A DNA stretch of 64,000 nucleotides from a candidate division LCP-89 bacterium B3_LCP (GTDB lineage: Bacteria; Electryoneota; B3-LCP). The stretch lies in contig NJBN01000002.1 of assembly GCA_005223185.1 (NCBI GenBank), positions 434,001 through 498,000 on the forward strand, in the 5' to 3' direction. Positions 6,801 to 60,241 of this stretch are shown one piece after another (position 1 is the first letter of the stretch; every line of letters begins with the position of its first letter). The notes beneath the pieces are model-generated. The model saw only the letters and a list, made by a program, of their open reading frames with translations, made no database searches and was not told the DNA's origin. Both the position numbers and the translations under genes were made by a program.

Positions 6801-9839
<3,039 letters not shown>

Positions 9840-9920
9840 GATCACTGCAACGGAACTTTAGTCCGATGTGATAGCATGAAAATATTCTGTAATAACTACA
9901 TAAACTAGTTCGGAGTACCA

Positions 9921-10484
9921 ATGGCATCTACTTCAGATCTAAAAAACGGACTTGTGATCAAGTTCAGGAATGAACTGTTCACAGTGATAGAATTTCAACA
10001 TGTGAAACCGGGAAAGGGCGGCGCTTTCGTCAGGACAAAGCTGAAAAATGTCAAAAGCGGCAGAGTTATAGATAACACCTTCCGTTCAGGTGAAGGCATC
10101 GACGTCGTGCGCATAGAATCCAAAGAGATGCAATACCTCTATCAGGAAGGTGATCACTTCGTCTTCATGGATAATCAGACCTATGAGCAGGTGTACGTTT
10201 CCGCCACTTTGATAGGTGAGGGTCAGAAATATCTAAAGGAAGGTGAAAGTTGTGGTATCAGCTTTCACGGGGATGATCCCATCACCTGTGAAATGCCCAA
10301 TTTCATTATCCTTCAGGTTGCGGAGACAGGGCCCGGAGCGAAGGGCGACACCGCATCGGGAGGATCTAAACCAGCGAAGCTGGAAACCGGAGCGGTGGTA
10401 AACGTGCCCTTCTTCATCAATGAAGGGGATATGATAAGAGTGGATACCCGCACTAATGCCTACATGGAACGCATCAAAGCGTAA
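9921..10484 (+). CDS. efp: Translation elongation factor P
   Basis: Relieves ribosome stalling at polyproline sequences. 187 aa, with the KOW-like N-terminal domain, two OB-type domains and the C-terminal NVPFFINEGDMIRVDTRT signature. The loop that enters the peptidyl-transferase centre reads KPGKGGAF, so the functional residue is Lys32, the position that EpmA lysylates in other bacteria; no epmA or ymfI is visible here. CGGAG lies 7 bases before the ATG. First gene of the efp-accB-accC run. Confidence 0.96.
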   Translation: MASTSDLKNGLVIKFRNELFTVIEFQHVKPGKGGAFVRTKLKNVKSGRVIDNTFRSGEGIDVVRIESKEMQYLYQEGDHFVFMDNQTYEQVYVSATLIGEGQKYLKEGESCGISFHGDDPITCEMPNFIILQVAETGPGAKGDTASGGSKPAKLETGAVVNVPFFINEGDMIRVDTRTNAYMERIKA

Positions 10485-33504: not shown

Positions 33505-36500
33505 GTGAAAAAGATCATACAGTCGTTTTTTAGGTATATTGAGTTGGGCTTGCCGGAGAGAGCTTTTCCAATCTGCGTCAGGAGAAACATAGTGATCCTG
33601 ACGTTTCTTTTTCTCATCACCGGCTTTGTGCCGCTGTTGTCAGTGCCTGCATTTGCCGTCACCGGAGAAACGGACGTAATTATCCTCCAAAACGACAGGC
33701 AGGGGATCTCTCTGCGCTATGTTACACCAACTGCACATTGGTCATTACTTCAAGTTGATCAACATCTTTATCGGACGCCATACGTCAAGAACACTGGAAC
33801 TATAGAGGAGGAAGGCGCTCCGCAACTGCCGGTGCGGGTGATTTGGTTAGTTATTCCACCGGAAGCTTCGCCTTCATTGACTGGTGCCGTACCCTACAGT
33901 GTAAACGTTTCGGCTGACGTTCCCGCTCCCGTTCCGACTATCGCTGCTGACGAAAACGGTTTTGCCACAGAGGTATATACCGAAGATCCTCAGGTATATT
34001 CTTCGCTTAGCCCCTTTCCTGCAAACTGGGTGGAAATTCAGGGACCTGAAAACTACCGTAATCTGCAGGTAATTCGCCTTTTGATTTACCCATTTCGTTT
34101 CCCATCCACTTCAGGTGGGACGATGTCCCTTGACTCGATCGATGTGACGGTGAGTTTTGCCGGTGGGAAAGTAACGCAGCCAGGTTTCCTGCGACCTCTG
34201 GAAGACGAATATTTAGGGCGATTGATAAGCAACTGGTCAGGGGAAGCGAAGAATTGGACTATTCCCAAATCACCACAAATAGCCGGAGTCGCTTCCTGGC
34301 CCAGCGGTAATACCTATAAAATCACGCTGGATGAAAGCGGGATATATCGTTTGACCTATTTTGATCTTTTAGGCGCTGGTATCGATCCGTCAGGCATTAA
34401 TCCGGACAAGATCTGCATTTTCAACAACGGTGGGAGGACTTTGCCACAGAGTGTAACTGCACCTCGCTCTGAACAACTGGAAGAGAACGCCATATTAGTC
34501 CATGATGGCAATGACGATTCCTTCGATCAAGGAGATGAAGTCTGGTTTTACGGTAAATCGGTGCATGAATGGGAATGGAATCAAACTCTGGGACGTTTTG
34601 TTCATTACCAGAACCCTTATATGGATGAGAATGTTTACTGGCTGAGCTTTGATCCATCCGGTCCTGACGGTCTGCGCATGGCGACACTGGGACAAACAGG
34701 TACAGCCTGGCTTAATCCACCCAACAGCCGCACTTATGCGTTCGAGGAGAAGGAACTCTATGCCATTTACAGTCAGTGGGATCTGCCACTATACATGCCC
34801 AACCTCTACGGAGATATCTTTTCGGGATCATCAGCATCTCGGACTTTTAACATATATTTGGAAGCTGTTGAAACGGCTGCGCCTGCTACCCTCTACTTGG
34901 AATTCAAACCTACCGGCACTTACGAAGTGCGCTTGAACGGGGAAATCATTGCCACCATTAGTAGTTCTTCAGCAACCGTGTCGATCCCTGCGGGTTTGTT
35001 GAATAGCGGCAACAATTCTCTGTACTTGAAGCACAATTCTTCCGGTACGTCCTACCTGGATCATTATGAGATCCATTACACCAGAGAGTTGACGGCTACT
35101 TCCAACCATGTTGACTTCGTCAGTCCGGATGCGGATGGTTTCGCGCAATTTTCAATTGAAGGATTATCAGATCCCTGGATATTTGACATAACCGACTATG
35201 AAGACGTGGCTGCTATCAATGCTGCCAGCTTTAAGGATTCGTCAGATGCCAGCAATCCCAGACGTTACATCGCCATTAACGAATCTGCCCTGATGTCTCC
35301 AACTGCAATAGAATTGGATCAGCGTAACGGTGATGAATATGTTAACCTGCGTTCTGCCCTGGGTGCGGACGTTCTGGTGATAACTGCCGATGAATTCTAC
35401 GACGCCATGTTTGCATACGAAGATTACCGCGAAGTATCTGCGCCTGATAATTTCGAAGTACTTCGCGTTCGTGTCAGCGATATCTTCGATGAGTTTGGCT
35501 GGGGGCTCAGAGATCCTGTGGCAATCAGAGATTTCGTGAAGAGTTCTCTACCGATCTACAATTGGGTGCTATCGCCTCTGTACATTTTATTCGTAGGAGA
35601 TGGAGATTTCGATTATAAGAACAACATAGCATCAGGTGATGCTAACTGGGTTATCCCCTATGAAGATGGATCTACCTGCACTGATGATTTCTACACCTGT
35701 TTTACGGCATCCGGTGGACCCTGTAGTTCTCCTGCTCTGTCCACAGGGCGCTGGACAGCCCGTTCCGTGAGTGAAGTGGAAGAAATGATAGCAAGGCTCA
35801 TTGAATATGAATCTGAGCCGACATTCGGTCCCTGGCGCAATCGTGCCGTGTTCGTCGCTGATGATGAGTATGAGAATGGAGTATATTATACCAAGGAAGA
35901 GGCACATGTCAAAGACACCGAACTACTGGTGGAATCGTACATGCCTGGCTTCATCAACAGTGAGAAAATCTATCTGACGGAGTATCCGGGAGAAAAAGAT
36001 CCCGCTGGCGGCGGGACGTACAAACCAGGAGCTACTTCTGATCTGATTGACAACATAAACGATGGATGCCTGATGGTCAACTATGTTGGTCATGGTAACC
36101 CCACCGTATGGTCCCACGAGAACGTCTTTCAACAATCCCGTGATTTACCACTTATCAATAACGGCAGCAGGTTACCGCTCTTCCTGGCTTTCACCTGCGA
36201 TTGGGCTTACTGGGACAAACCTGCTGAACAGAGTATGCCCGAAGAGATGATCTACATGGCAAACGGTGGCGCCATCGCAGCCATTGCAGCCACGCGAGTT
36301 ACTTCTTCAGGCGCTAACGCAGCTCTGGCCTTTAATTTCTACAGCGAGCTGTTTTCCCAGCCTACCGGTATAAGATTGGGTGATGCCTTGATGCTGGCTA
36401 AAACGAACTACACCACGAGTAACAGTGAGAAATATCATCTGCTGGGTGATCCAGTGATGAAACTGGCGTTACCACAACTTAACGTGTATATCGATTCAAA

Positions 36501-37536
36501 TTCCGTCGATACTTTAGTGGCGTTGGGGTCAGTTACGCTTTCTGGTGAAATACAAACGCAAGGCGGTGCATTAGTGCCTGATTTTGAGGGTGTAACTCAC
36601 CTGCAGGTTTTCGATTCACGAGTGCTGGTTACCTACGCTTTCGATAACGATTCTTCATTTACGACATATATCCTGCCAGGGAATTTGATCTTCCGAGGCG
36701 ATGTTACCGCGCATAACGGTCTGTTTGATGCATCATTCATCGTACCCGTGGATATTGGATACGGTGGTGATGATGGGCGTTTTTCAGTATATGCATATTC
36801 CGATGAGACGGACGGCGCCGGAGTGAAAAGCGGCGTGATATTTGGGGAGTCCGTTGTAGCTCTTCAGGACACCATACCGCCTTTGGTCAGCGTTTATTTC
36901 GATTCCCCCGGCTTCCGGGACGGTGATCCCATTGGCAATGAGGCTACGCTATTCGTAGAAGTAATTGACAGCAACGGTGTGAATATCACCGGCAGCGCCG
37001 GACACGGAATAGTAGTTACCATCGATGGCAGTATTCCTTTCGATCTTACAGACTCTTTCAGTTATGAGCTTGACAGTCATACCTCAGGGAGGGCAGAGTA
37101 TAAAATCTCGGCAGGGGAAATATCACCAGGACTTCACAACGCCGAAGCTATAGCCTGGGATGTGGCTAATAATCCCAACATCGCACAGGTGAGTTTCGAA
37201 GTTACAGGCTGGGAGGAATTCAGGGTAACGGATGTTTTAAACTATCCCAATCCTTTCAATAATTACACAAGATTTACGTTCGTATTAGCTGGAAGTGGAG
37301 CTTCAGGTGCTAATGTTAGTATTAAGATTTACACCGTTGCCGGTCGTCTGGTCAAGGTCATTGACGGAATAATCGGCAATGATTCTTTCAATTATGATGA
37401 TCCGGCTTTAGTTTGGAACGGTCGTGATGAAGAAGGCGACCTGCTTTCTAATGGAGTTTACATCTACAAGGTAAAGGCAGTTGGCTTGACTGGGAATATT
37501 GCCAATGAGACCGGCAAGTTAATCGTCATGAGATGA
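33505..37536 (+). CDS. porU: PorU-like C25 (gingipain-type) cysteine protein of a type IX-like secretion system
   Basis: 1343 aa. A signal/anchor segment lies near residues 30-52. After beta-rich N-terminal domains comes a C25 domain (about 590-990) with YILFVGDGDFDYKN, the catalytic His863 in NYVGHGN and Cys898 in AFTCDW, the layout of PorU, the sortase that removes C-terminal signals from type IX cargo. It ends with an Ig-like region and a PNP/FlgD-like domain (YPNPFNNYTRFTF...GVYIYKVKA, about 1240-1343); Bacteroidota PorU also ends in such a domain. Start GTG 33505. PorV follows, as in Bacteroidota porU-porV. A general C25 surface peptidase is the alternative. Confidence 0.8.
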   Translation: MKKIIQSFFRYIELGLPERAFPICVRRNIVILTFLFLITGFVPLLSVPAFAVTGETDVIILQNDRQGISLRYVTPTAHWSLLQVDQHLYRTPYVKNTGTIEEEGAPQLPVRVIWLVIPPEASPSLTGAVPYSVNVSADVPAPVPTIAADENGFATEVYTEDPQVYSSLSPFPANWVEIQGPENYRNLQVIRLLIYPFRFPSTSGGTMSLDSIDVTVSFAGGKVTQPGFLRPLEDEYLGRLISNWSGEAKNWTIPKSPQIAGVASWPSGNTYKITLDESGIYRLTYFDLLGAGIDPSGINPDKICIFNNGGRTLPQSVTAPRSEQLEENAILVHDGNDDSFDQGDEVWFYGKSVHEWEWNQTLGRFVHYQNPYMDENVYWLSFDPSGPDGLRMATLGQTGTAWLNPPNSRTYAFEEKELYAIYSQWDLPLYMPNLYGDIFSGSSASRTFNIYLEAVETAAPATLYLEFKPTGTYEVRLNGEIIATISSSSATVSIPAGLLNSGNNSLYLKHNSSGTSYLDHYEIHYTRELTATSNHVDFVSPDADGFAQFSIEGLSDPWIFDITDYEDVAAINAASFKDSSDASNPRRYIAINESALMSPTAIELDQRNGDEYVNLRSALGADVLVITADEFYDAMFAYEDYREVSAPDNFEVLRVRVSDIFDEFGWGLRDPVAIRDFVKSSLPIYNWVLSPLYILFVGDGDFDYKNNIASGDANWVIPYEDGSTCTDDFYTCFTASGGPCSSPALSTGRWTARSVSEVEEMIARLIEYESEPTFGPWRNRAVFVADDEYENGVYYTKEEAHVKDTELLVESYMPGFINSEKIYLTEYPGEKDPAGGGTYKPGATSDLIDNINDGCLMVNYVGHGNPTVWSHENVFQQSRDLPLINNGSRLPLFLAFTCDWAYWDKPAEQSMPEEMIYMANGGAIAAIAATRVTSSGANAALAFNFYSELFSQPTGIRLGDALMLAKTNYTTSNSEKYHLLGDPVMKLALPQLNVYIDSNSVDTLVALGSVTLSGEIQTQGGALVPDFEGVTHLQVFDSRVLVTYAFDNDSSFTTYILPGNLIFRGDVTAHNGLFDASFIVPVDIGYGGDDGRFSVYAYSDETDGAGVKSGVIFGESVVALQDTIPPLVSVYFDSPGFRDGDPIGNEATLFVEVIDSNGVNITGSAGHGIVVTIDGSIPFDLTDSFSYELDSHTSGRAEYKISAGEISPGLHNAEAIAWDVANNPNIAQVSFEVTGWEEFRVTDVLNYPNPFNNYTRFTFVLAGSGASGANVSIKIYTVAGRLVKVIDGIIGNDSFNYDDPALVWNGRDEEGDLLSNGVYIYKVKAVGLTGNIANETGKLIVMR

Positions 37537-37709
37537 AATCTTTTCGCTTATCCCATGAAAAAAAGCGTTTTTCCTTGAAACCTTATCGTATAATTACCAC
37601 TTTAATAGATATCATAAACATCCGGGAATTGAAATTAAATCTGGACTTCTTAGGATGATAATAAAATAGTAAGCTCAATTCCTAATTGAGAAAGGCATCG
37701 GAGGAAAGT

Positions 37710-38798
37710 ATGAATTGGCGGCTTTGCATTGTTCTGCTGATCCTGGCGGGAACTTTGGTGAGCGTAAATGACGGATTGGCGGATGGGCCATCGGAAGCCG
37801 GCGTAATCTTTTTGAAACTGGTTCCGGGCACCAGACCCGCCGGCATGGGTGAGGCTTTTGTGGCACAGGCGGATGACGCTACTGCCACCTGGTGGAATAC
37901 TGCCGGAATGGGTTTCTTGACCAGGCAGGAATTGGCTTTGATGTATGTCAACCTGTTACCCCAGTTTCATCTGGATGATCTCTACTACAGTTTTATATCG
38001 TACGTTCAGCCCATTGAATACTGGGGCACAGTGGGTGGGAATATCATTTTCACCAATTACGGGAAGACGGAAGGGCGTGACGAAAACAACATGCCCACCG
38101 GCACCTTTCACAGTTACGACGTTGCCTTTACAGCGGCATACGGTACAGCTTTGAAGATGGACAGGAATGGCAAACCTCTGCAGAAAGGTCTGGCGATGGG
38201 GGTTGCAGCCAAGTTCATCTACAGTCATCTGGCGGATCAGGGCGCTGGCGCTGAAAAGGGATCTGGCGTAGGCACCAGCATGGCTATCGACATTGGTGTA
38301 TTGTACAAGGAGGCTTTTATAAGAGGACTTTCTTTAGGAGCTACCTTGACAAATATGGGTCCGGCGATTTCCTACATCGACCGGGCGCAGGCTGATCCTC
38401 TGCCCATGACCATCAGGATAGGAGGATCCTACAAGCTTATGAACTCCGAATTCAACGAGTTGATAGTCAACCTGGATTTCCAGAAAGAATTAGTAGATCG
38501 TTATGACGACGGCAAGGCAGTGCCTTTTTACATTGCCATGTTCAGTTCCTGGTCGAACAACGACCTTACTAATGAAATCGAAGGTGTCATTCCCAATATA
38601 GGAATGGAATATTGGTACAACAGGATGGTCGGACTCCGTTTGGGATATTACCATGATATCTTAGGCGACCGCTTTCCGCTTTCCTTCGGTTTTTCACTAA
38701 AATACTCTTCCTACGAGTTTGACTTTGGCTATGTTTCCGCTGGCGAAGGTCACCCTCTGACGGATACCATGATGTTCTCACTGAGTCTCGGTATATAA
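37710..38798 (+). CDS. porV: PorV-like outer-membrane protein
   Basis: 362 aa. A signal peptide is followed by the PorV/PorQ-family start (AGVIFLKLVPGTRPAGMGEAF, then AQADDATATWWNTAGMGF), an even spread of amphipathic strands, and a C-terminus ending in Ile after alternating aromatic residues, as in FadL-like barrels. PorV (LptO) is the shuttle that delivers type IX cargo from the translocon to PorU. The adjacent C25 gene makes this the best candidate for true PorV among the three family members in the window. The start is ATG 37710 with GGAGGAAAG upstream. Confidence 0.85.
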   Translation: MNWRLCIVLLILAGTLVSVNDGLADGPSEAGVIFLKLVPGTRPAGMGEAFVAQADDATATWWNTAGMGFLTRQELALMYVNLLPQFHLDDLYYSFISYVQPIEYWGTVGGNIIFTNYGKTEGRDENNMPTGTFHSYDVAFTAAYGTALKMDRNGKPLQKGLAMGVAAKFIYSHLADQGAGAEKGSGVGTSMAIDIGVLYKEAFIRGLSLGATLTNMGPAISYIDRAQADPLPMTIRIGGSYKLMNSEFNELIVNLDFQKELVDRYDDGKAVPFYIAMFSSWSNNDLTNEIEGVIPNIGMEYWYNRMVGLRLGYYHDILGDRFPLSFGFSLKYSSYEFDFGYVSAGEGHPLTDTMMFSLSLGI

Positions 38799-42042: not shown

Positions 42043-45000
42043 ATGAAACCGCTTCCACAGAATCGTTATTATCACTTTTCCATTTTGCTATTTGCAGCAT
42101 TTGCTCTTATTTATGCAAAAACTGGCAATGCTCAACCAGCAAGTTACAATCACCCTGAATTGGACTGGGAAGTGTATGAAAGCGTGCACTTTCAGGTAAT
42201 GTTCCACCAGGGCACGGAACGAACGGCGAGGGAACTACTCCGCATAGCCGAAGATATCTACGAACCGATAACGTCACTGTACGGTTACCATCCGGATACC
42301 AAGGTGCGCATCATCGTCCGCGACGATGACGACTATTCCAACGGTGGCGCTTACTATTATGACAATAAGATACTCATTTATGCGAAGAGCTTAAACTTCG
42401 TACTGAGGGGTACGCACAACTGGCTTCGCAACGTGTTGACGCACGAATTTACGCACATTATCCAGTTGGGAGCTTCGCGCAAAGCGCCGCGCTGGCTGCC
42501 GGCTTTCTACTTTCAATGGATAGAATACGAAGAGGAGAAGAGGCCTGACGTTCTTTATGGCTATCCCAACATTCTTGCATCCTATCCCATGCCCATGACG
42601 GTAATCCCCAAGTGGTACGCCGAAGGATGCGCGCAATACATGCAGCCCGGTATGGGATACGATCACTGGGATTCGCATCGAGACATGATCGTGCGTATGA
42701 GAACGCTGGAAGGAAAACTGCTGACCTACACACAACTGGGCGATTATTACGATAAGAGTAGTTACTACGGTGAATCGGTTTACGATCACGGATTCTCCCT
42801 GGTCAGTTACATCGTTGATCGCTGGGGTGTCGGGGTGTTAAAAGAGCTGTCCAATGAGATGGCAAAACCATTCAGCATGACATTCGACGGGGCGCTCAAG
42901 CGAGAATTGGGTATCAATGGGAATGAACTGCACCGGCAATGGTCTACTTATCTAAAAGAGACCTATCTATCGAGAACAGAAGCTATCAGAGCCAATCGCG
43001 CTGAAGGCAAACTAATTGAAGAGGGCAGCTTTGCCAATCTGAATCCTGAGTGGTCTAAAGATGGTAAAAGATTAGCTTTCACTTCGAACAAGGGGGGGCA
43101 TTACTTCGGTTCAGCCAATCTGGTCATCTATGACCGCGAAACTGAAGAAACCCTGAAGATTCAAGATAAAATCAGTTCCCAGCTATCCTGGAGCCCGGAC
43201 GGCAGGTTTATCTTTTACGACAAGCAGTTCAGACCGGATAAAAATGGATCCCATTTCGATGACATAGCTGCGTGGGATTTCGATGAAGAAAAGGAACTGC
43301 GGCTGACCGAAGGGCGAAGAGCTGCTCAGGTTGACGTCTCCCCCGATGGCAAGCATCTTTGTTACGTTGTCTATGCTGATGGCACGGAAAATCTCTGGAC
43401 AGCCGATCTCTGTGAAGATTGGTGGAAAAAGGACTTAAACGAATGCATCACCGCTGAGAAAGCCCTGACTCATCATAATAACGGAGAACAGATATATACA
43501 CCCAAGTGGTCGCCTGATGGGAAGAGGATTATATATTCCACCAGCAGGGATAGAGACAGGGATATTGTATATATAGATATTGAGAGCGCTGAGACACGAT
43601 CTGTGCTGAATTCCCGATCAGACGAACGTGATCCTGAATGGTCAAGTGATGGTGAGTTCTACTTTTCCAGTGATAAGACAGGTATATTTAACCTGTACCG
43701 TTATTCCTTTACAGATTCATCGGTTACGCCGGTTTCGAACGTATTGGGCGGAGCTTTCACGCCTGCTTATTCAAATGATGGGCGTTTAGCTTATGCTGAC
43801 TTCCGAGCTACCGGATACAAGATGGCTCTGTTCGATTCCGTTACTATTGTTGTTGCAGAGACGATGACATATATACCTGATTATAATGAAACTCTGCCGG
43901 GAGTAAACTATCCCACTTCCTATCCTCTGGAAGCCGATTCAAAACCGTATAAACCCTCGTTTGATAAGACTTTCATATATCCGCGGCTGGCTATGGATTT
44001 CGGCACCTTCAAGCCCGGATTGTATTTCTTTTTCCAGGATGTTTTGGAGAGAATGACAGCTTTCGGCGGTTTTGCCATGAACGCCGAAGGTGATTACGAC
44101 CTCTTCGCTCTGTTGGACTACAAACGTCTTCATCCCACGCTATTTCTGGAAGCTTATAATATCAAGCGCCATTCCGAACAGTCCTTCGAAGATCCCTTCG
44201 TCATAGTGGGGGAGAGCGGCACCGGTCCCGACGCAGTACCCATATACGATCACTATTCCATTAAGTACAACTTCAACCTGATTGAACTGGATGCGGGGAT
44301 AAAGCTGAAGTTCCTGGATGACATTCAGATCAAGTTAGCAGGGATACTGTCCCGCTACCGCACTAAACTATATTTGGATGACGGCATGGCTTTTGGTTAT
44401 ACTTATTTCAAGGGCGTTGCTGCTGAACTGGACGTCACCGCTGACCTGAGGCCGCGTGGCCGCTATCAGGATATTAATCCCACAGCCGGTTACTTCATCA
44501 AGGCTAAAGTTGCCCGCGAATTCAACAATTTCATTGATGGCTTCCAAATAAATGCCGATAAGGGAACTTTACAGGAGGTTTATTCATATTACGGCTATAA
44601 CCGCTACCAATTAGTCGTTGACCGTTATCTTCAATCACCTTTAGCCAAAGAGCATGGCATAACGCTGACTGCCGACTTAGGCTACATCGATAAACCCGTA
44701 GATGACTTCTTCAACATGTACGCGGGCGGCTTCGATGGAATGAGGGGTTATTCATACTACAGCTTAGGTGGAACCCATAAGGCAATATTGCGTTGCGCTT
44801 ATAATTTTCCCCTATGGCAGGATATTGACGAACGACTGGGCATTATCAGGCTGGAACAAATGTATTTCAAGATTTACGGTGACGTCGGTAATGCCTGGAA
44901 TGGTGATTTTGACGCGGATGATCTGAAGAAGGACATGGGTGTAGCGTTGAAACTGCAGTTGTTCAGCTACACTACTTTTCCAACTGCCGTTACCTTCGAT

Positions 45001-45144
45001 GCGTCTTATGGATTCGACCATTTTCAGGTGGTTGATTACAGCGGAATTCATAAGTACGGCGGGGAATGGAGGTATTATTTCACGCTGCTGTTCAACTTTA
45101 ATTTACGGCATGCGTTTCAGCCTTATCAATATCGAAGTAGATAA
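42043..45144 (+). CDS. Three-part envelope protein: MA-like metallopeptidase, TolB-like propeller, outer-membrane barrel
   Basis: 1033 aa. A signal peptide ends near NAQPA. The peptidase-MA-like domain has HEFTH (H134, E135, H138) and a downstream Glu194 in WYAEGCAQ, a complete gluzincin-type set. From about residue 330 to 620, PD40/TolB-type repeats recur (NPEWSKDGKRLAF, SWSPDGRFIFY, KWSPDGKRIIY, EWSSDGEFYF). The remainder (about 660-1033) consists of alternating strands with AGGFDGMRGY near the end, like BamA/Omp85-type surface barrels. The active site is probably in the periplasm, tethered to the outer membrane by its own barrel. Confidence 0.85.
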   Translation: MKPLPQNRYYHFSILLFAAFALIYAKTGNAQPASYNHPELDWEVYESVHFQVMFHQGTERTARELLRIAEDIYEPITSLYGYHPDTKVRIIVRDDDDYSNGGAYYYDNKILIYAKSLNFVLRGTHNWLRNVLTHEFTHIIQLGASRKAPRWLPAFYFQWIEYEEEKRPDVLYGYPNILASYPMPMTVIPKWYAEGCAQYMQPGMGYDHWDSHRDMIVRMRTLEGKLLTYTQLGDYYDKSSYYGESVYDHGFSLVSYIVDRWGVGVLKELSNEMAKPFSMTFDGALKRELGINGNELHRQWSTYLKETYLSRTEAIRANRAEGKLIEEGSFANLNPEWSKDGKRLAFTSNKGGHYFGSANLVIYDRETEETLKIQDKISSQLSWSPDGRFIFYDKQFRPDKNGSHFDDIAAWDFDEEKELRLTEGRRAAQVDVSPDGKHLCYVVYADGTENLWTADLCEDWWKKDLNECITAEKALTHHNNGEQIYTPKWSPDGKRIIYSTSRDRDRDIVYIDIESAETRSVLNSRSDERDPEWSSDGEFYFSSDKTGIFNLYRYSFTDSSVTPVSNVLGGAFTPAYSNDGRLAYADFRATGYKMALFDSVTIVVAETMTYIPDYNETLPGVNYPTSYPLEADSKPYKPSFDKTFIYPRLAMDFGTFKPGLYFFFQDVLERMTAFGGFAMNAEGDYDLFALLDYKRLHPTLFLEAYNIKRHSEQSFEDPFVIVGESGTGPDAVPIYDHYSIKYNFNLIELDAGIKLKFLDDIQIKLAGILSRYRTKLYLDDGMAFGYTYFKGVAAELDVTADLRPRGRYQDINPTAGYFIKAKVAREFNNFIDGFQINADKGTLQEVYSYYGYNRYQLVVDRYLQSPLAKEHGITLTADLGYIDKPVDDFFNMYAGGFDGMRGYSYYSLGGTHKAILRCAYNFPLWQDIDERLGIIRLEQMYFKIYGDVGNAWNGDFDADDLKKDMGVALKLQLFSYTTFPTAVTFDASYGFDHFQVVDYSGIHKYGGEWRYYFTLLFNFNLRHAFQPYQYRSR

Positions 45145-45186: not shown

Positions 45187-46158
45187 ATGCGCTGGATGAA
45201 CATCGTTCTCGCAATTTCAATACTGGCGTTATCGTCATGGGCTGACCCCGGTAATGGGACGAAATTTGGCTTTAATCCCACCCGCCTGGAAGTTGCTCAA
45301 GTCATGAATCAGACTCAAGAAGAACCAGAACCCGAACTAGCACCGGACCTGGATATAGAGGGCAGATTGGTTCCTGGCAAAGCGTTGCTGCTTTCAGCCA
45401 TCCTGCCGGGTACAGGTCAGTTTTACGCCAAGAACTACCTATTCGCCGCAGCTTTTCTGGCGATTGAAGTCGGAGCCTGGTATGGCGTGGCAAGTTCACA
45501 CGGCCGAGGCATGGACAAGGAAACTGAATTTCTGGCTTTCGCCGACCAGCACTGGACCTATTATGATGAATCGTATGGTGGCCTTGGTGATTATGGCTCG
45601 TACTTGGAATACGAATACTATGCAGCATATGAATTCGGGCCGGATGGTGAAAGCGGGGGAGACGTCTATACTGGGTCCATCGTGGAATGGCAGCTCCTGA
45701 CCTGGAATGAGAGATCCTACTGGCTTCCCGCCAACGGCTTTACCCATGAACTTGATCCCAATAATAAGGATCAACAGTACTACGAAATGATCGGCAAGTA
45801 CGATCAATTCGGAGCCGGCTGGCCCGAAGATGGTGATTATGATCCCGATTGGCGAAATGGACCATATCTATATGATGATTTGGGAGCCAAGACCTGGAAA
45901 TGGCAGACTCACAACACCTACCGTGAAGACTATCTGAACATGCGCAAGGATTCCAACGATGCGCTGGAAATGTCTAAAAACTACACCATGGTGGTTTTGG
46001 GTAACCATCTTTTGTCAGCGCTTCATGCTGGGTTCAATGTAAGCTGGAAGAACCGCAAACTGGCTAAGGAACAGAGCGTCGAAGGCGCCTTTCATCTGGA
46101 ACCGAAGCGGCATAATAACGAGATGGTCGCTATGGGCGTTCTGGGAATTACCTTTTAA
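45187..46158 (+). CDS. DUF5683-like envelope protein A
   Basis: 323 aa. A signal peptide (ISILALSSWA) and a central DUF5683-type segment with two helices (KALLLSAILPGTGQFYAKNYLFAAAFLAIEVGAWYGV) are followed by a long Tyr/Trp/Asp-rich soluble insert (FADQHW, DVYT, QFGAGWPE-G-Y, WQTHNTY-EDYLNMR) and a closing helix (VVLGNHLLSALHAGFNVSW). The insert is shared with the lipoprotein at 8892-9839. DUF5683 proteins have no known function. In line with the neighbouring surface genes it probably sits in the cell envelope. Confidence 0.8.
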   Translation: MRWMNIVLAISILALSSWADPGNGTKFGFNPTRLEVAQVMNQTQEEPEPELAPDLDIEGRLVPGKALLLSAILPGTGQFYAKNYLFAAAFLAIEVGAWYGVASSHGRGMDKETEFLAFADQHWTYYDESYGGLGDYGSYLEYEYYAAYEFGPDGESGGDVYTGSIVEWQLLTWNERSYWLPANGFTHELDPNNKDQQYYEMIGKYDQFGAGWPEDGDYDPDWRNGPYLYDDLGAKTWKWQTHNTYREDYLNMRKDSNDALEMSKNYTMVVLGNHLLSALHAGFNVSWKNRKLAKEQSVEGAFHLEPKRHNNEMVAMGVLGITF

Positions 46159-46173
46159 CGGAATGATGGTGTA

Positions 46174-46950
46174 ATGCGGAAAACTGGCTATCTTATAGTG
46201 TTAATTGCCTGTTTAGTATCCTATAATCAGGCGTATGCTCAAGATGTGCAGACAAAACTGTTCGCAGTGAATGAAAATCAGGGACGCCAGCAGTTAGCAG
46301 CGCAGTTCACTCAAAATAGCAGTGAATATACCACTATGTCCAGTGTGGATATATCTGGTAGCCAGCATCCTGAAGAATTCAGCCGGGGTGGCGCTATGCT
46401 GCGTTCACTGGTGATTCCCGGATGGGGTGAACACTATTTAGGATATAAGGGAACTGCGAAGGTTCTCTTCTGGACTGACGTAGCGTTATGGGCTTCAATC
46501 ATAGGGCTGGAAACCTACAGTCATTGGAGAGAAGACCAGTTCTTCGCTTATGCCTCAGAACATGCTGGCGCTCAGATGAGTGGAAAAGCAGATGATTTCT
46601 ACGCGGACATTGGCAATTATTCCAGCACCGAAAGCTACAACGAAGCCAAGCTGCGCAACCGTGACTACGAATCCGTTTATACCGACCCATCCTATTTCTG
46701 GGCATGGGATTCGGAGATGAATCGCCTGGAATACGACCATATTCGCATCCAGAGTCGTTCAGCTCATAGTAAAGTCTATATATTGCTGGGCGCTGCTGCC
46801 TTGAATCGTCTGATTTCGTTTATCGATACCGGCAAGAAAGCGCGGGATTTATTGAGTAAACAGAGATCGGTCGATTTGGGAATTCACATCCAGCCTGAAA
46901 GGCGTGGTGAAAATAACGCGGTCAGCCTGGTTGTGAGCGCCGGTTTCTGA
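46174..46950 (+). CDS. DUF5683-like envelope protein B
   Basis: 258 aa. Start ATG 46174 with signal peptide to about AYA. DUF5683-like helices: MLRSLVIPGWGEHYLGYKGTAKVLFWTDVALWAS. The insert differs from protein A and carries the motifs HAG, IGNY, YNEAKLRNRDYESVY, YFWAWDSEMNRLEYDHIRIQSR, then a helix with LNRLISFIDTGKKARD. It follows protein A by 15 bases, so the two are surely co-transcribed and may form a pair. Confidence 0.8.
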   Translation: MRKTGYLIVLIACLVSYNQAYAQDVQTKLFAVNENQGRQQLAAQFTQNSSEYTTMSSVDISGSQHPEEFSRGGAMLRSLVIPGWGEHYLGYKGTAKVLFWTDVALWASIIGLETYSHWREDQFFAYASEHAGAQMSGKADDFYADIGNYSSTESYNEAKLRNRDYESVYTDPSYFWAWDSEMNRLEYDHIRIQSRSAHSKVYILLGAAALNRLISFIDTGKKARDLLSKQRSVDLGIHIQPERRGENNAVSLVVSAGF

Positions 46951-46974: not shown

Positions 46975-47856
46975 ATGCGCATCCTGATCACCGGCGCTTC
47001 CGGATTTATCGGTGGGACCTTATACTGCAGCAGTCCTGATAAATACGATGTGTGGGGAACTTATCACCAATCGCCGGTCAAAACCGGCGATTCTCAATTT
47101 ATAGAACTTAATCTGCTCGATTATATCGAAACCACAAATGTACTGAACAGTGTCAATCCTGACGTCATAATTCACTGTGCAGCTCTGTCCAAAGTATCCT
47201 TCTGCCAAAACCATCCTTCTTCCGCCTGGGATTTAAATAACAAAGCTACAGAGCACCTGGTCAAACTCATAAATGATGATATTATAAATACTCGCCTCAT
47301 TTTCCTTTCCAGCGATATGGTTTTCAACGGACAAAAAGGCGATTACTGCGAATCCGATCAACCCGATCCCATTAACCTATATGGACAGACCAAGTTAGCG
47401 GCTGAGGAGCATGTGGCGAGGTTGGGTGCAAAAGGAACCGTCCTTAGATTGAACTTAGTATATGGACGCCCCGTAATGGGAGGGAGTTCCTTCTCCGAAG
47501 AGGTAATTCACGTTGTTAAGAGCGGGAAACCATATCATCTCTTTGTTGATCAGCACAGATCTTTCATGTCCGTAAAGAATTTGACGCGCTGTATATGGGA
47601 GGTGGTCGCTTCTGATTTTCACGGAGTGCTGCACCTGGGAGGAAACGAACCTGCTGATCGTGTTATCTTTGCCTATAAACTTGCCCGCAAAGCCGGACTG
47701 AATACTTCACTTCTATTAACTTCAAACAACCAAGGTGGTGGGCGGGACGTCCCCTATCCCAAGAATAACACCTTCGACCTCTCCTTAGCAAAAAGTCTCC
47801 TGAAAACCCGCCTTTTAGCCATTGATGACGGTCTGGATCTGGAATATCCACCTTAA
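46975..47856 (+). CDS. NAD(P)-dependent epimerase/reductase, RfbD-like (SDR extended)
   Basis: 293 aa. The Rossmann motif GASGFIGG is at the N-terminus; DVIIHCAAL, SSDMVFNG, and the catalytic YGQTK (YxxxK), with the preceding SSD, match the RmlD/dTDP-4-dehydrorhamnose-reductase branch of extended SDR proteins. Substrate sugars cannot be decided: no other rhamnose genes are present. It begins 24 bases after the DUF5683-like pair, and glycosylation of surface proteins would be a reasonable guess, no more. Confidence 0.85.
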   Translation: MRILITGASGFIGGTLYCSSPDKYDVWGTYHQSPVKTGDSQFIELNLLDYIETTNVLNSVNPDVIIHCAALSKVSFCQNHPSSAWDLNNKATEHLVKLINDDIINTRLIFLSSDMVFNGQKGDYCESDQPDPINLYGQTKLAAEEHVARLGAKGTVLRLNLVYGRPVMGGSSFSEEVIHVVKSGKPYHLFVDQHRSFMSVKNLTRCIWEVVASDFHGVLHLGGNEPADRVIFAYKLARKAGLNTSLLLTSNNQGGGRDVPYPKNNTFDLSLAKSLLKTRLLAIDDGLDLEYPP

Positions 47857-47962: not shown

Positions 47963-49006
47963 ATGAATGAAAGACATAACACACTATCACGGATTCTCCT
48001 GGCCGGGGGAATAGCATTGATCGTGGCAATTGCTTTTTGGAGTGTGAGCCAGCAGAGTGCAATTGCAGGTACTGATTGTCACGGATTCCTGGGGGTATAT
48101 CTCACATCCAAAGTAGAGGTTACAATCGAGGATGGTGAGAAATCGGAAAAGACAGGCAAAGCCTACGTTGATGTCGTGGAAGATGGACCTGCCGATAAAG
48201 CCGGTCTTGAAGACGGGGATCTGATCGTAAGTTTCAACGGCAAGGGGGTGGACAACACGAAGGAACTGCAAAAGTTGATCCACAAAACCAAACCGGGCGA
48301 TAAAGTCAAAGTCGTTGTGCAGCGCGGAGGTAAGGAGCTGCAGTTCAGTGTGGAAATGGGTGAACCTCCTGCGAAGAAGATATTTAGTTGGATGGGGAAA
48401 GGTAAGTCGGGAAAACACCGCATGAAGCTCAAATATAAAGGCTGCGTCAGTGATGATCGCGGCTGGATGGGAGTGGAACTTCAGGACCTCTCCGATCAAT
48501 TAGGTGAATACTTCAAAGTAGATGACGGCAAAGGCGCACTGGTTTCATCGGTGATGGAGGATTCACCCGCTGAAAAGGCTGGTTTGGCTGCTGGAGACGT
48601 GATATTCAAACTGGATGACGAACCCATTGAAGACAGCGGTGATTTAGTTACTTCTCTGCTTGATAATGAGCCCGGAGATAAAGTGGCTGTGAAACTTATA
48701 CGTAAGGGTAAGAAGAAGACGATCAAAGTGGAACTGAGCGAAGTCCCGGAAAAATACGCCTGTGGTTCCTGTGATAAAGATAGTCAGAGTCTGTTCCTGG
48801 ATTGTGGGGATTTCGATTTCGGTGACTTCGATTGCTTCGATGACTTGAAAATCATGAAGTTCAAGCATCATCTGGATCTTGATGACTTCGACGACCTGAA
48901 GGATATCCAAATCAATCTTGAAGGACCGATGGAAGAACTGAAAGAGGAACTTCAGAGGTTGAAAGAAGAGATCGATAAGCTGAAAGAAGAGCATGAGAAG
49001 AATTAG
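47963..49006 (+). CDS. Double-PDZ secreted protein with acidic and coiled-coil tail
   Basis: 347 aa. An N-terminal hydrophobic signal/anchor (ILLAGGIALIVAIAFWSV) is followed by PDZ 1 (GFLGVYL...ADKAGLEDGDLIVSFNG, about 40-130) and PDZ 2 (GWMGVELQDL...AEKAGLAAGDVIFKLDD, about 165-250). The tail is an Asp/Phe-rich stretch (DCGDFDFGDFDCFDDL) and a charged heptad-like coiled coil of Glu, Leu and Lys to the end. It resembles the PDZ half of HtrA/DegP without a protease domain, suggesting a substrate-binding or scaffold role in the envelope. Followed by its own terminator. Confidence 0.85.
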   Translation: MNERHNTLSRILLAGGIALIVAIAFWSVSQQSAIAGTDCHGFLGVYLTSKVEVTIEDGEKSEKTGKAYVDVVEDGPADKAGLEDGDLIVSFNGKGVDNTKELQKLIHKTKPGDKVKVVVQRGGKELQFSVEMGEPPAKKIFSWMGKGKSGKHRMKLKYKGCVSDDRGWMGVELQDLSDQLGEYFKVDDGKGALVSSVMEDSPAEKAGLAAGDVIFKLDDEPIEDSGDLVTSLLDNEPGDKVAVKLIRKGKKKTIKVELSEVPEKYACGSCDKDSQSLFLDCGDFDFGDFDCFDDLKIMKFKHHLDLDDFDDLKDIQINLEGPMEELKEELQRLKEEIDKLKEEHEKN

Positions 49007-56822: not shown

Positions 56823-57728
56823 TTAAAATGATATGCTTATTGCGAATCTATGCGACGCTCCGAAGTCCTCAGCTAATGGTTGATAAGCATAATCAAACCG
56901 ATATCCCTTCCAGCCGAATCCCATTCCACCGGAAAACGAGCGTAGTTCACTGCCAGTTTGATAACCTGCCCTCAAGAAGAGATGTTCCTTCCACGATCCT
57001 TCCAGACCAGCATGCAGGCGAACGTCATTTTCAAGATATAAGCGCAGGTCAGCGGAACTCCGCAAACCGAAGTCATCGCTCCGGATAATCCGTCCGCTTA
57101 CGCCGGCAGCGCCGTACGTTGGCAGCGTGGTATTCTCCTCGTCCAGGGCGCTCATGCTGCCTAAATTCATGAGGACAACGCCGACTTTCAGATCGTTGAT
57201 TGACAGTCGGTAAACTGCGCCTAAATCTACGCTGAAACCCGATGAATTTTCTATATATATCTGCTGACTTAAGTAGCGAGCTGTACCGCCCAAAGCCAGC
57301 TTCTCTCCGAACAGGTGTGCTATACTGAAGCCGGCGGTTACATCATGAGCGGAGAATGTCTGCAGAGGGTCATCGGATGGCAGTGTACGCAATTCAAGGT
57401 CAGGAACAGTGAAAGCATTAAAGGAAATCCCCAGGGCAGTTTTGCCGCTTTTAAAAAGGAGAGCTCCAGTCTGAATAGTCAGGTCAAGTATCCAGTCGCT
57501 GTATCCAAAAGTAGCTTCACTGCTTTTGGCAAAGGTCAGAAGAGCCGGGTTATGGAAAGCAGCCATAGATCCGGCAGCTCCAGCGACACCCGTTTCACCC
57601 AGTGCGGTGCTGCGCGCATCTGGTGATATCTTTAACAACGGCATCGAGCCGTTGGTTTCTGCGAGGCTTGGGTTTAGGACCAAGCAGAGTATAAACCCTA
57701 AGATGAAGATATTTCGAGAGAGTTTCAT
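56823..57728 (-). CDS. PorV/PorQ family outer-membrane protein (copy 2)
   Basis: 301 aa. A signal peptide (to about LAE) is followed by MPLLKISPDARSTALGETGVAGA-GSMAAFHNPALL, the family's N-terminal motif, then beta-barrel strands and a terminal aromatic/aliphatic residue pattern (FAISISF, C-terminal Phe). Shorter than porV at 37710. The start overlaps the stop of copy 3 by one base, so they are translated together. Possibly a PorQ-like or an accessory outer-membrane protein. Confidence 0.82.
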   Translation of the reverse strand: MKLSRNIFILGFILCLVLNPSLAETNGSMPLLKISPDARSTALGETGVAGAAGSMAAFHNPALLTFAKSSEATFGYSDWILDLTIQTGALLFKSGKTALGISFNAFTVPDLELRTLPSDDPLQTFSAHDVTAGFSIAHLFGEKLALGGTARYLSQQIYIENSSGFSVDLGAVYRLSINDLKVGVVLMNLGSMSALDEENTTLPTYGAAGVSGRIIRSDDFGLRSSADLRLYLENDVRLHAGLEGSWKEHLFLRAGYQTGSELRSFSGGMGFGWKGYRFDYAYQPLAEDFGASHRFAISISF

Positions 57729-58723
57729 TAGAATATAAGAGAAAATGAAATTACCTGGGAATCATACGGCGGTATGTCTTCGATCTGATAGGCATAGTCA
57801 ATTACGCCGCGTAACTGCCAGACGGAGAAAACAAATCCAAAACCGAAAGCTAAATCAGCATCATTATAACCCGCACGCAGACTGAATTCGTATGGTTCAA
57901 AGTTGGCGTAGCGGTATTCGATACCCGCATGTATGGAATTGTCCTGCTGGTCACTGGTCTCAAATTCTGCTGCTGCCAACAGGCCGAAATCGAATAGATA
58001 GGTTCCTCCGAAGCGGTAAACTCTGGGAAACTTGTCCGTTGCTGTAGTACCGTCATCGCCCCATATATTGGTGCTGTCCCAGCGGTACTGTGCATTTATG
58101 TTACGTGCTTGAACGCCTAAGTACAGCCTTTCCATAGGATTTATCAACAGACCAGCATCAAAACCCAACCTGGTACTTGAAAATGATTCTGAACTGGTCA
58201 GATCAGGAAAGCTGTTGTACAGCACCTTGGGAGCGAAACCTATGGCGATTTTATCTGAAATGCGCAGTGCAAAGGCGAAATAGAAAGCGTTCTCCGAATT
58301 TTTAAACGTGCCGATGGGATTGCCATCGGTATCACGACCGTCGATATCTCCTGTGCCCGCGTTTATCCAACCCACGCCCAAACCGGCGGTGATGGGGTTG
58401 CCGGATTGCGCCGATGGTGGACGTAGCGGCGTGGCAAAGCCGACGAAATTCAGGTGCCGGTCAAGCGAAAGATAGTTATAGGAGGTGAGAAAGGTCCGTT
58501 CTTCTAAAAAAGGAAGCGAGGCAGGGTTGTAATATATTCCGAACCCATCACCGGGAATGGCGACCCCAACGTCCCCCATCGCCAATGACCTGGCGCCCAA
58601 TCCCATACGCAGAAAGGCGCCTGCCATACCAGCGTTACTGCCGGCATATACATTGGCAGCACTCAAGCTGAACATGATGATGGCAGTTAAAACCAATCTG
58701 AAAGTTCTAATCGAACGTGGCAT
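57728..58723 (-). CDS. PorV/PorQ family outer-membrane protein (copy 3)
   Basis: 331 aa. Signal peptide to about VYA, then the family pattern AFLRMGLGARSLAMGDVGVAIPGDGFGIYYNPASLPFLEERTF, barrel strands, and a C-terminal Phe (VISFSLIF). Co-transcribed with copy 2 and lying downstream of a PNP-domain repeat protein, which makes the group look like a surface-export locus. AATA-rich leader without a clear binding site. Confidence 0.82.
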   Translation of the reverse strand: MPRSIRTFRLVLTAIIMFSLSAANVYAGSNAGMAGAFLRMGLGARSLAMGDVGVAIPGDGFGIYYNPASLPFLEERTFLTSYNYLSLDRHLNFVGFATPLRPPSAQSGNPITAGLGVGWINAGTGDIDGRDTDGNPIGTFKNSENAFYFAFALRISDKIAIGFAPKVLYNSFPDLTSSESFSSTRLGFDAGLLINPMERLYLGVQARNINAQYRWDSTNIWGDDGTTATDKFPRVYRFGGTYLFDFGLLAAAEFETSDQQDNSIHAGIEYRYANFEPYEFSLRAGYNDADLAFGFGFVFSVWQLRGVIDYAYQIEDIPPYDSQVISFSLIF

Positions 58724-58741: not shown

Positions 58742-60241
58742 TTAGTTTATTACCGCTATCTTTCCCCAAATGGGACCGGCACTGCTGCGCTCTATCCTGT
58801 AAAAGTAAACTCCGGTAGCCACCATTTCACCATTGCTGCGTTTGCCGTCCCAGACTTCATAGTTGTCACCAGAATCACGTTGACCATTATCAACTATAGT
58901 CACGACCTCATCCATGGCAAAGTCGAACAATTTCAACGTAACCTTACCTGGGGAAGGCAAATCATATTGAAACCTGGTTACGAAATGCAATCTTGGTGAA
59001 AAGGGATTCGGATAGGAGTAAGTTGCAGGCTGTCCAGCTTGGTTAGTCTGAAGGTAGCTTCTGTGCAACCACCAAGTACCACCAGCGTCCCCACTTGATG
59101 CTATTCCATCACCAGTGCCAACCCAGAGAGTGTTACTTAAACTAGTTTTATGAACTAAAGAACAGTAGAATTCTGGGTCATAAAGGTATCTATAAATTCC
59201 GGCAACAGAGTCAAATTCGGCAATCTGCGGAAACAAGCCCCAGTCAGTTCCACCATTTATTGATTTGTGCAATCCGAGATTACTGGATACGTAGATAGCA
59301 GAATCATCAAAAGCGATGCTGTGCGCTTTTAAGGTTAGAAAACTATCTATGATAACCACTTCCCACGTTGCCCCGTAGTTCTCCGTCTTGCTGACGCCGT
59401 AATACTCTCCAGAACTGGATGCCGCCCAGGTTGCCGCCCAGAGTACGTCATTTCCGCTCCACTGCTGTCGTCCTAACGCAGTGATGAAGTTTCCACTGAT
59501 GTCGTGTGTTCCGTAATTGTAGTTATCCCAGGTCTGCCCGCCATCGATTGATTTATTGATGCCTGCCGCCGTACCTACCCAGAGGATATTATCATCGCCT
59601 TCGACTGCAAAGGGACGGTGGTTCAGGTGATCCAATGAGGAGAAAGGAAGCGTGTCCGGTGTTACCACGTACCATGTGCTGTCTGCGAAATCGAACTTAC
59701 GCAGTCCACCACCCCAGGAGGTAATCCAAACCTCTGTTGAGGTGATCAGCAGATCGTAGGTTACGTTCTGGATATTGGTGGTAGTGGGAGAGTAGGAAGT
59801 AACGGTGTCGTCATCGACAGGTTGGTTATACCAGGTCCAATTGCTGCCTCCATCAGTGCTGAATCCGACACCACCACCGGCTGGCAGATAGCCTTCGGAG
59901 GTCGAAGCGGTGTAGGCGGTTGCTGCCCAGATGACGCCGTTTCTTTCATCGAGCGCTGATACGGAACCGTGCCCCATGCCGTGGCTTTCACTGAAGGAAC
60001 TCCACGTAGAGTCTTCGGAATGCCATATGGAGAGCCCTCCGCCCGTTCCCATCAAAACGTCCAGAGAATCCGGGACCATGTCAATCACGGAGTTCGACAA
60101 CAGGCGTTCGACATGAGGATCGCCGCCTTCCGATATAAAACGGAACCCGGTCTTGCCGGGAACCTGTGCCTGAACGGAGATAGAGCAGGAAATTACCACT
60201 GCTATTACCAAGTTCAGTCCAAAAAGTGTTTTCAAAGTCAA
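58742..60241 (-). CDS. Secreted Ycf48/sialidase-like repeat protein with PNP C-terminal domain
   Basis: 499 aa. Signal peptide ending ...SISVQAQ. The body consists of beta-propeller-type repeats of the STDGGSNW, SIDGGQTWDNY, TENYGATWEVV, SINGGTDWGLF kind (photosystem-assembly Ycf48/BNR-like). The C-terminus is a PNP/FlgD-like domain (YSYPNPFSPRLHFVTRF...VATGVYFYRIERS), probably a sorting or anchoring signal. Overlaps the lipoprotein gene at 60238 by 4 bases. Confidence 0.82.
   Translation of the reverse strand: MTLKTLFGLNLVIAVVISCSISVQAQVPGKTGFRFISEGGDPHVERLLSNSVIDMVPDSLDVLMGTGGGLSIWHSEDSTWSSFSESHGMGHGSVSALDERNGVIWAATAYTASTSEGYLPAGGGVGFSTDGGSNWTWYNQPVDDDTVTSYSPTTTNIQNVTYDLLITSTEVWITSWGGGLRKFDFADSTWYVVTPDTLPFSSLDHLNHRPFAVEGDDNILWVGTAAGINKSIDGGQTWDNYNYGTHDISGNFITALGRQQWSGNDVLWAATWAASSSGEYYGVSKTENYGATWEVVIIDSFLTLKAHSIAFDDSAIYVSSNLGLHKSINGGTDWGLFPQIAEFDSVAGIYRYLYDPEFYCSLVHKTSLSNTLWVGTGDGIASSGDAGGTWWLHRSYLQTNQAGQPATYSYPNPFSPRLHFVTRFQYDLPSPGKVTLKLFDFAMDEVVTIVDNGQRDSGDNYEVWDGKRSNGEMVATGVYFYRIERSSAGPIWGKIAVIN

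Follow-up and report, generated by a model that had tools for sequence, protein, structure and literature searches.

A predicted metallopeptidase-propeller-Omp85 fusion protein encoded in the type IX secretion operon of Candidatus Zixiibacteriota

The open reading frame at 42043-45144 of the window, which is the whole 64,000-nucleotide stretch of DNA analysed here, raises the question of which envelope system is served by a protein that seems to be protease, propeller and outer-membrane barrel at once. The initial annotation found a zinc set, PD40 repeats and an Omp85-like C-terminal barrel in one chain. This composition is borne out by the intact open reading frame, the domain matches and the conservation among orthologs.

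Architecture of the fusion protein

The gene and its parts are listed below. Ortholog counts refer to 18 orthologs; domain counts are Pfam matches, that of Peptidase_MA_2 being taken at E <= 0.05.

42043..45144, + strand: MA-metallopeptidase/TolB-like propeller/Omp85-barrel fusion gene; 1033 aa, ATG start, without internal stop
42043..42135, + strand: predicted Sec signal peptide, about aa 1-31 (...TGNAQPA), without lipobox; read from the sequence
42145..43002, + strand: MA-clan (gluzincin) metallopeptidase domain, aa 35-320; Peptidase_MA_2 (PF13485) in 15/18 orthologs
42442..42456, + strand: HExxH zinc/catalytic motif, H134-E135-F-T-H138; HE[FY][TSG]H in 18/18 orthologs
42622..42624, + strand: third zinc ligand, E194 (W[FY]AEG); AEG invariant in 18/18 orthologs
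43003..43842, + strand: TolB-like PD40 beta-propeller, aa 321-600; PD40 in 18/18 orthologs; the only region modelled confidently by AlphaFold2
43963..45102, + strand: predicted Omp85-type C-terminal beta-barrel, aa 641-1020; PF01103 in 8/18 orthologs; hhalign match with the genome's own BamA
44725..44772, + strand: Omp85 L6-like motif GGFDGMRGYSYYSLGG; GGxxG(M/L)(R/K)G(Y/F)S kept in 18/18 orthologs

When the window protein itself is searched, Pfam gives 79.6 bits for PD40, 31.9 bits for Peptidase_MA_2 and no match for Omp85, and NCBIfam gives 104.5 bits for the TolB propeller (cut-off 343) and a BamA (OM_YaeT) match with E 0.02 at aa 856-964. The Peptidase_MA_2 score is 31.9-32.0 for the window protein and 36.0 for a paralog described below, as compared with the Pfam gathering cut-off of 32.4. 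The initial numbering of the zinc residues is correct, H134-E135-F-T-H138 and W191-Y-A-E194-G being found in the window protein, and the HExxH motif with a downstream Glu ligand that characterizes an MA peptidase is present in all 18 orthologs. A PDB profile search with the peptidase domain gave no match.

The peptidase is the best-conserved domain in the ortholog alignment, with 61 of 286 columns invariant and a mean majority fraction of 0.66, followed by the barrel (0.59) and the propeller (0.52). Conservation is poor at the N-terminus, AQ at the predicted signal-peptide junction being the exception. Given that no catalytic residue varies and that no other domain is as well conserved, the catalytic function of the fusion protein appears to be under selection. 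These same observations argue against the alternative that the MA domain acts in binding or as a scaffold, without proteolysis, and keeps its zinc site for stability. This alternative would be consistent with the neighbouring M6-type peptidase (see below), which shows that pseudopeptidases are retained in this locus, and with the fact that the proteolytic activity of the fusion protein is itself predicted from sequence, but we regard it as very doubtful.

The propeller model obtained with AlphaFold2 contains about 21 modelled strands in about six blades. When this model is searched with Foldseek, the best PDB matches are TolB (E 3.9e-13), and PDB TolB chains are also matched by sequence. The fusion protein thus shares fold and sequence of the propeller with TolB, but differs from it in having a peptidase and a barrel; plain TolB is rejected, because the score for the TolB equivalog is far below its cut-off.

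By homology, the C-terminal third is predicted to be an Omp85-type barrel. PF01103 is matched by orthologs with a best E of 2.8e-8 at full length and 2.8e-9 for the barrel only, the window protein itself being below detection. When a profile of the ortholog barrels is compared by hhalign with BamA from the window genome, it matches the C-terminal part with E 9.5e-5 (probability 59%); a PDB profile search with the barrel gave no match. The core of the loop-6-like motif is GM(R/K)G(Y/F) in 17 of the 18 orthologs and GLRGY in one, and the whole motif resembles what we take to be the loop-6 (L6) motif of Omp85 proteins, (V/M)RG(Y/F). The full-chain structure prediction proposed in the initial annotation (AlphaFold2, 3 sequences) supports the propeller with confidence and does not do so for the other regions (pLDDT 38, pTM 0.38). 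The barrel is unmodelled in this prediction, and its pLDDT is 27 when it is predicted alone with 2 sequences. A crude strand profile of the barrel based on alternating hydrophobicity is hardly above that of shuffled columns, and therefore no strand number is claimed; 16 strands would be expected of an Omp85 barrel. POTRA gave no Pfam match in the fusion protein at E <= 1, and the peptidase and propeller fill the region in which BamA has its N-terminal POTRA domains. Plain BamA is rejected for this reason. The invariant catalytic residues and the Omp85-type barrel support the initial idea of a membrane-tethered protease.

The porU operon and the M6-type peptidase

The fusion gene is the fourth gene of a tight run on the + strand (porU-porV-M6-fusion gene-DUF5683-DUF5683-rmlD), the other members of which are as follows.

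33505..37536, + strand: porU, sortase of the type IX secretion system (T9SS); NF033707 743 bits, cut-off 420
37686..38798, + strand: porV family, T9SS shuttle; NF033709 248 bits, cut-off 90; PF19572
38814..41999, + strand: M6-type peptidase and T9SS cargo protein that carries the sorting tail and has lost HExxH; NF052323 531 bits, just under the cut-off of 600
45187..46158, + strand: DUF5683-like membrane protein 1, downstream neighbour; weak PF18935 match, conserved order
46174..46950, + strand: DUF5683-like membrane protein 2, downstream neighbour; weak PF18935 match, conserved order
46975..47856, + strand: RmlD-like NAD-dependent sugar reductase; PF04321 140 bits

A search of 61 genomes gave ortholog matches for the fusion gene in 39, namely in 38 of the 39 genomes of the phylum (Candidatus Zixiibacteriota) and in one genome (G039) that is not assigned to it. 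All 39 genomes have a porU match, which is above the curated cut-off in 38; in G019 porU is split over two contigs. The distance from porU to the fusion gene is 4.0-5.8 kb in 30/30 genomes with both genes on one contig, the remaining 9/39, with the two genes on different contigs, lying outside this count. The order porU-porV-M6-fusion gene with short gaps is found in the 17 neighbourhoods examined and in locus L068, the porU or porV call being missing inside the stretch read in L041 and L048. The RmlD-like gene is usually the last gene of the conserved run and is found in many loci. The sole genome of the phylum without an ortholog (G029, 88% complete) also lacks PorU above cut-off, M6 and SprA, although proteins with a match to the T9SS sorting tail are present in it; these gene absences possibly result from the incomplete assembly. 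The conservation of residues and operon position across the phylum indicates that the observation is not due to chance.

Through the operon, the fusion protein is linked to the T9SS and to attachment at the cell surface. Surveillance or maturation, as initially proposed, was a guess made without this context, and the context favours this link over general surveillance. A shared operon is no proof that the fusion protein physically associates with the T9SS. The window genome also encodes a Sov/SprA translocon (C16:154174-160248) and a PorZ-like protein (C12:267738-270119; 224.8 bits, cut-off 260). The presence of these two proteins outside Bacteroidota contrasts with the available text of a review in which the T9SS is called Bacteroidetes-specific (PMC7463736). 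A search for PorM/GldM gave no match, but gave none in any control genome either, so that this negative result carries no information.

Several other features of the region were observed. The tandem DUF5683-like pair (45187-46950) lies in the conserved T9SS operon, and DUF5683 also follows M6 in two other phyla. A tandem PDZ protein (47963-49006) resembles the PDZ part of HtrA/DegP without the protease domain. Two adjacent PorV/PorP-like outer-membrane proteins (56823-58723, - strand) lie beside a FlgD_ig protein (58742-60241), and this pair possibly represents a second T9SS-related cluster.

The active site of the M6 protein is degenerate in all 19 loci carrying the fusion gene, HExxH being kept in none (0/19). 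One reference locus in each of two other phyla (G041 and G046) has porU-porV-M6-DUF5683 and lacks the fusion gene. When 57 genomes of these phyla were sampled, all had an M6 match, and the reading covered 50 loci of 47 genomes. The fusion gene was not seen in these 50 loci within the flanks read, about 1.5 kb per side, and the M6 site HE[FY]GH is intact in 46/46 loci covering it, as judged from both motif pattern and alignment. The split between loss of the M6 site and presence of the fusion gene is clean; yet it probably reflects a single evolutionary event and therefore counts as n=1, so that it is suggestive and not a statistical proof. Proteolysis at this locus may have passed to the fusion protein, leaving the M6 protein with a structural, non-catalytic role. 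As a separate observation, PorV of the outgroup phyla (L064 10741-13203, L065 10766-13447) is called as an open reading frame of 820-893 aa, more than twice the usual length.

Paralogs, wider relatives and known systems

The three-part architecture is not confined to the T9SS-linked gene. As the initial annotation suggested, it was sought in related genomes, and it is present phylum-wide in the orthologs and in a paralog, with relatives in other phyla. Every genome of the phylum examined encodes a second protein of the same three-domain design; in the window genome it lies at 7288-10416, - strand, of locus L055 (G000:C2). The paralog keeps HE[LV][TSA]H and adjoins MlaE in 11 of the 16 loci read (L055 and L124-L138), usually with MlaF alongside; T9SS neighbours were not detected in these 16 loci. 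In the tree, the T9SS-linked copies form one group apart from the paralogs (support 85/86), with a long branch between. Among the relatives outside the phylum, those of G044 and G046 cluster with the paralogs, while those of G051 and G057 are long-branched and unsure in placement; the G057 relative comes from a genome without SprA or PorU. The paralog and the relatives beyond the phylum suggest that the architecture is a reusable envelope module, with the T9SS-linked copy as a specialised branch of it.

These results bear on the possibility that the fusion protein acts generally in the outer membrane, as a quality-control protease or as a factor for barrel assembly similar to a BamA-BamB fusion with an added protease, and is not specific to the T9SS. 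Its operon location would then be explained by the heavy load of barrel proteins that the T9SS puts in the membrane. A paralog with an intact motif beside MlaE, together with relatives from outside the phylum, including that of a genome without SprA or PorU, is consistent with such a factor, and a paralog of this architecture beside MlaE/MlaF would agree with a general role in the envelope. However, the T9SS-linked copies group apart from the paralogs and are always in the porU operon wherever contigs permit the test. We consider this possibility unlikely, although it deserves to be taken seriously.

The pairing of propeller and Omp85 barrel has been known since 2014. According to the available text of the survey of Heinz & Lithgow 2014 (PMC4104836), members of the WD40-Omp85 subfamily named there have a TolB-like propeller N-terminal to an Omp85 barrel, with no POTRA detected, and the separate 'Metallo' class has as its defining domain PF00149, which differs from the MA peptidase. 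The fusion protein shares the propeller directly before the Omp85 barrel and the lack of POTRA, the agreement being with the description of the subfamily rather than with the sequences of the 2014 paper. As compared with this description, it adds a zinc peptidase before the propeller and the T9SS linkage. On its predicted domains it therefore fits WD40-Omp85, with the MA peptidase, the place in the T9SS operon and the M6-site loss as added features. The peptidase module, T9SS operon membership and M6 inactivation appear to be new here. A literature search for the peptidase-propeller-Omp85 architecture gave only the Omp85 survey and general papers, a result that does not prove the absence of an earlier report.

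PlpD, a patatin-Omp85 protein, likewise carries an enzyme domain N-terminal to its barrel, but this enzyme is a lipase, and PlpD has POTRA and no propeller. BepA, a periplasmic M48 metallopeptidase of E. coli, shares the zinc peptidase character and works on barrel assembly at an Omp85 protein, but belongs to another peptidase family and is not fused to a barrel. With the PorU-PorV-PorQ-PorZ attachment complex, the fusion protein has in common the operon with porU and porV and the possession of a propeller and a barrel; it does not match the families of PorQ and PorZ. A substitute for PorZ is rejected, because the separate PorZ-like protein is encoded elsewhere in the genome.

Proposed role in type IX secretion

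We tentatively favour, with a confidence that falls somewhat short of even, the explanation that the fusion protein is an outer-membrane-anchored zinc metallopeptidase serving the T9SS secretion/attachment module of Zixiibacteriota. The more specific proposal, that it is a dedicated subunit of the T9SS attachment operon that took over catalysis as the ancestral M6 protein became a pseudoenzyme, is possible and on balance rather unlikely.

The favoured explanation would work as follows. The fusion protein would be exported by Sec and then inserted by BAM, its N-terminal peptidase and propeller facing the periplasm beneath the barrel, as in other Omp85 proteins. This orientation is proposed because the enzymatic domain of PlpD, once thought to be exported, has been proved to be periplasmic (PMC11116518). 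The propeller would bind a partner, either an incoming outer-membrane component of the T9SS or its cargo, and the peptidase would cut the bound partner, for maturation or to clear copies that are misassembled, much as BepA does at BAM. BepA acts on LptD in both ways, by promoting its maturation or by degrading it, and probably does so on the BAM complex (PMC8423444). In this scheme, proteolysis may have been handed over from the M6 protein to the fusion protein. Such a hand-over to a periplasmic enzyme is topologically awkward, because the M6 protein, with its T9SS tail, is expected at the cell surface.

Alternatively, the peptidase and propeller may be exported to the surface, either through the barrel or past it, and there they would directly replace the inactivated M6 protein in cargo processing beside PorU. 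This alternative is kept because PorU works at the cell surface with PorV (PMC5562754), and it is consistent with the M6 inactivation in the same loci. The N-terminal domains of the Omp85 proteins studied, that of PlpD included, are however periplasmic (PMC11116518), and a surface-exposed enzyme is probably not the correct solution.

The periplasmic metallopeptidase favoured here would represent an enzymatic Omp85 protein with a precise genomic partner system. To our knowledge, few Omp85 proteins with an N-terminal enzyme domain have been characterised, and this partner system makes substrates testable (PorV, Sov, M6 and T9SS cargo). The results also point to catalytic roles having been exchanged within one operon, between two metallopeptidase families that are unrelated. 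The fusion gene points to a part of the T9SS outside Bacteroidota that was so far undescribed, and these results suggest that its product is a so far unrecognised helper of the T9SS machine.
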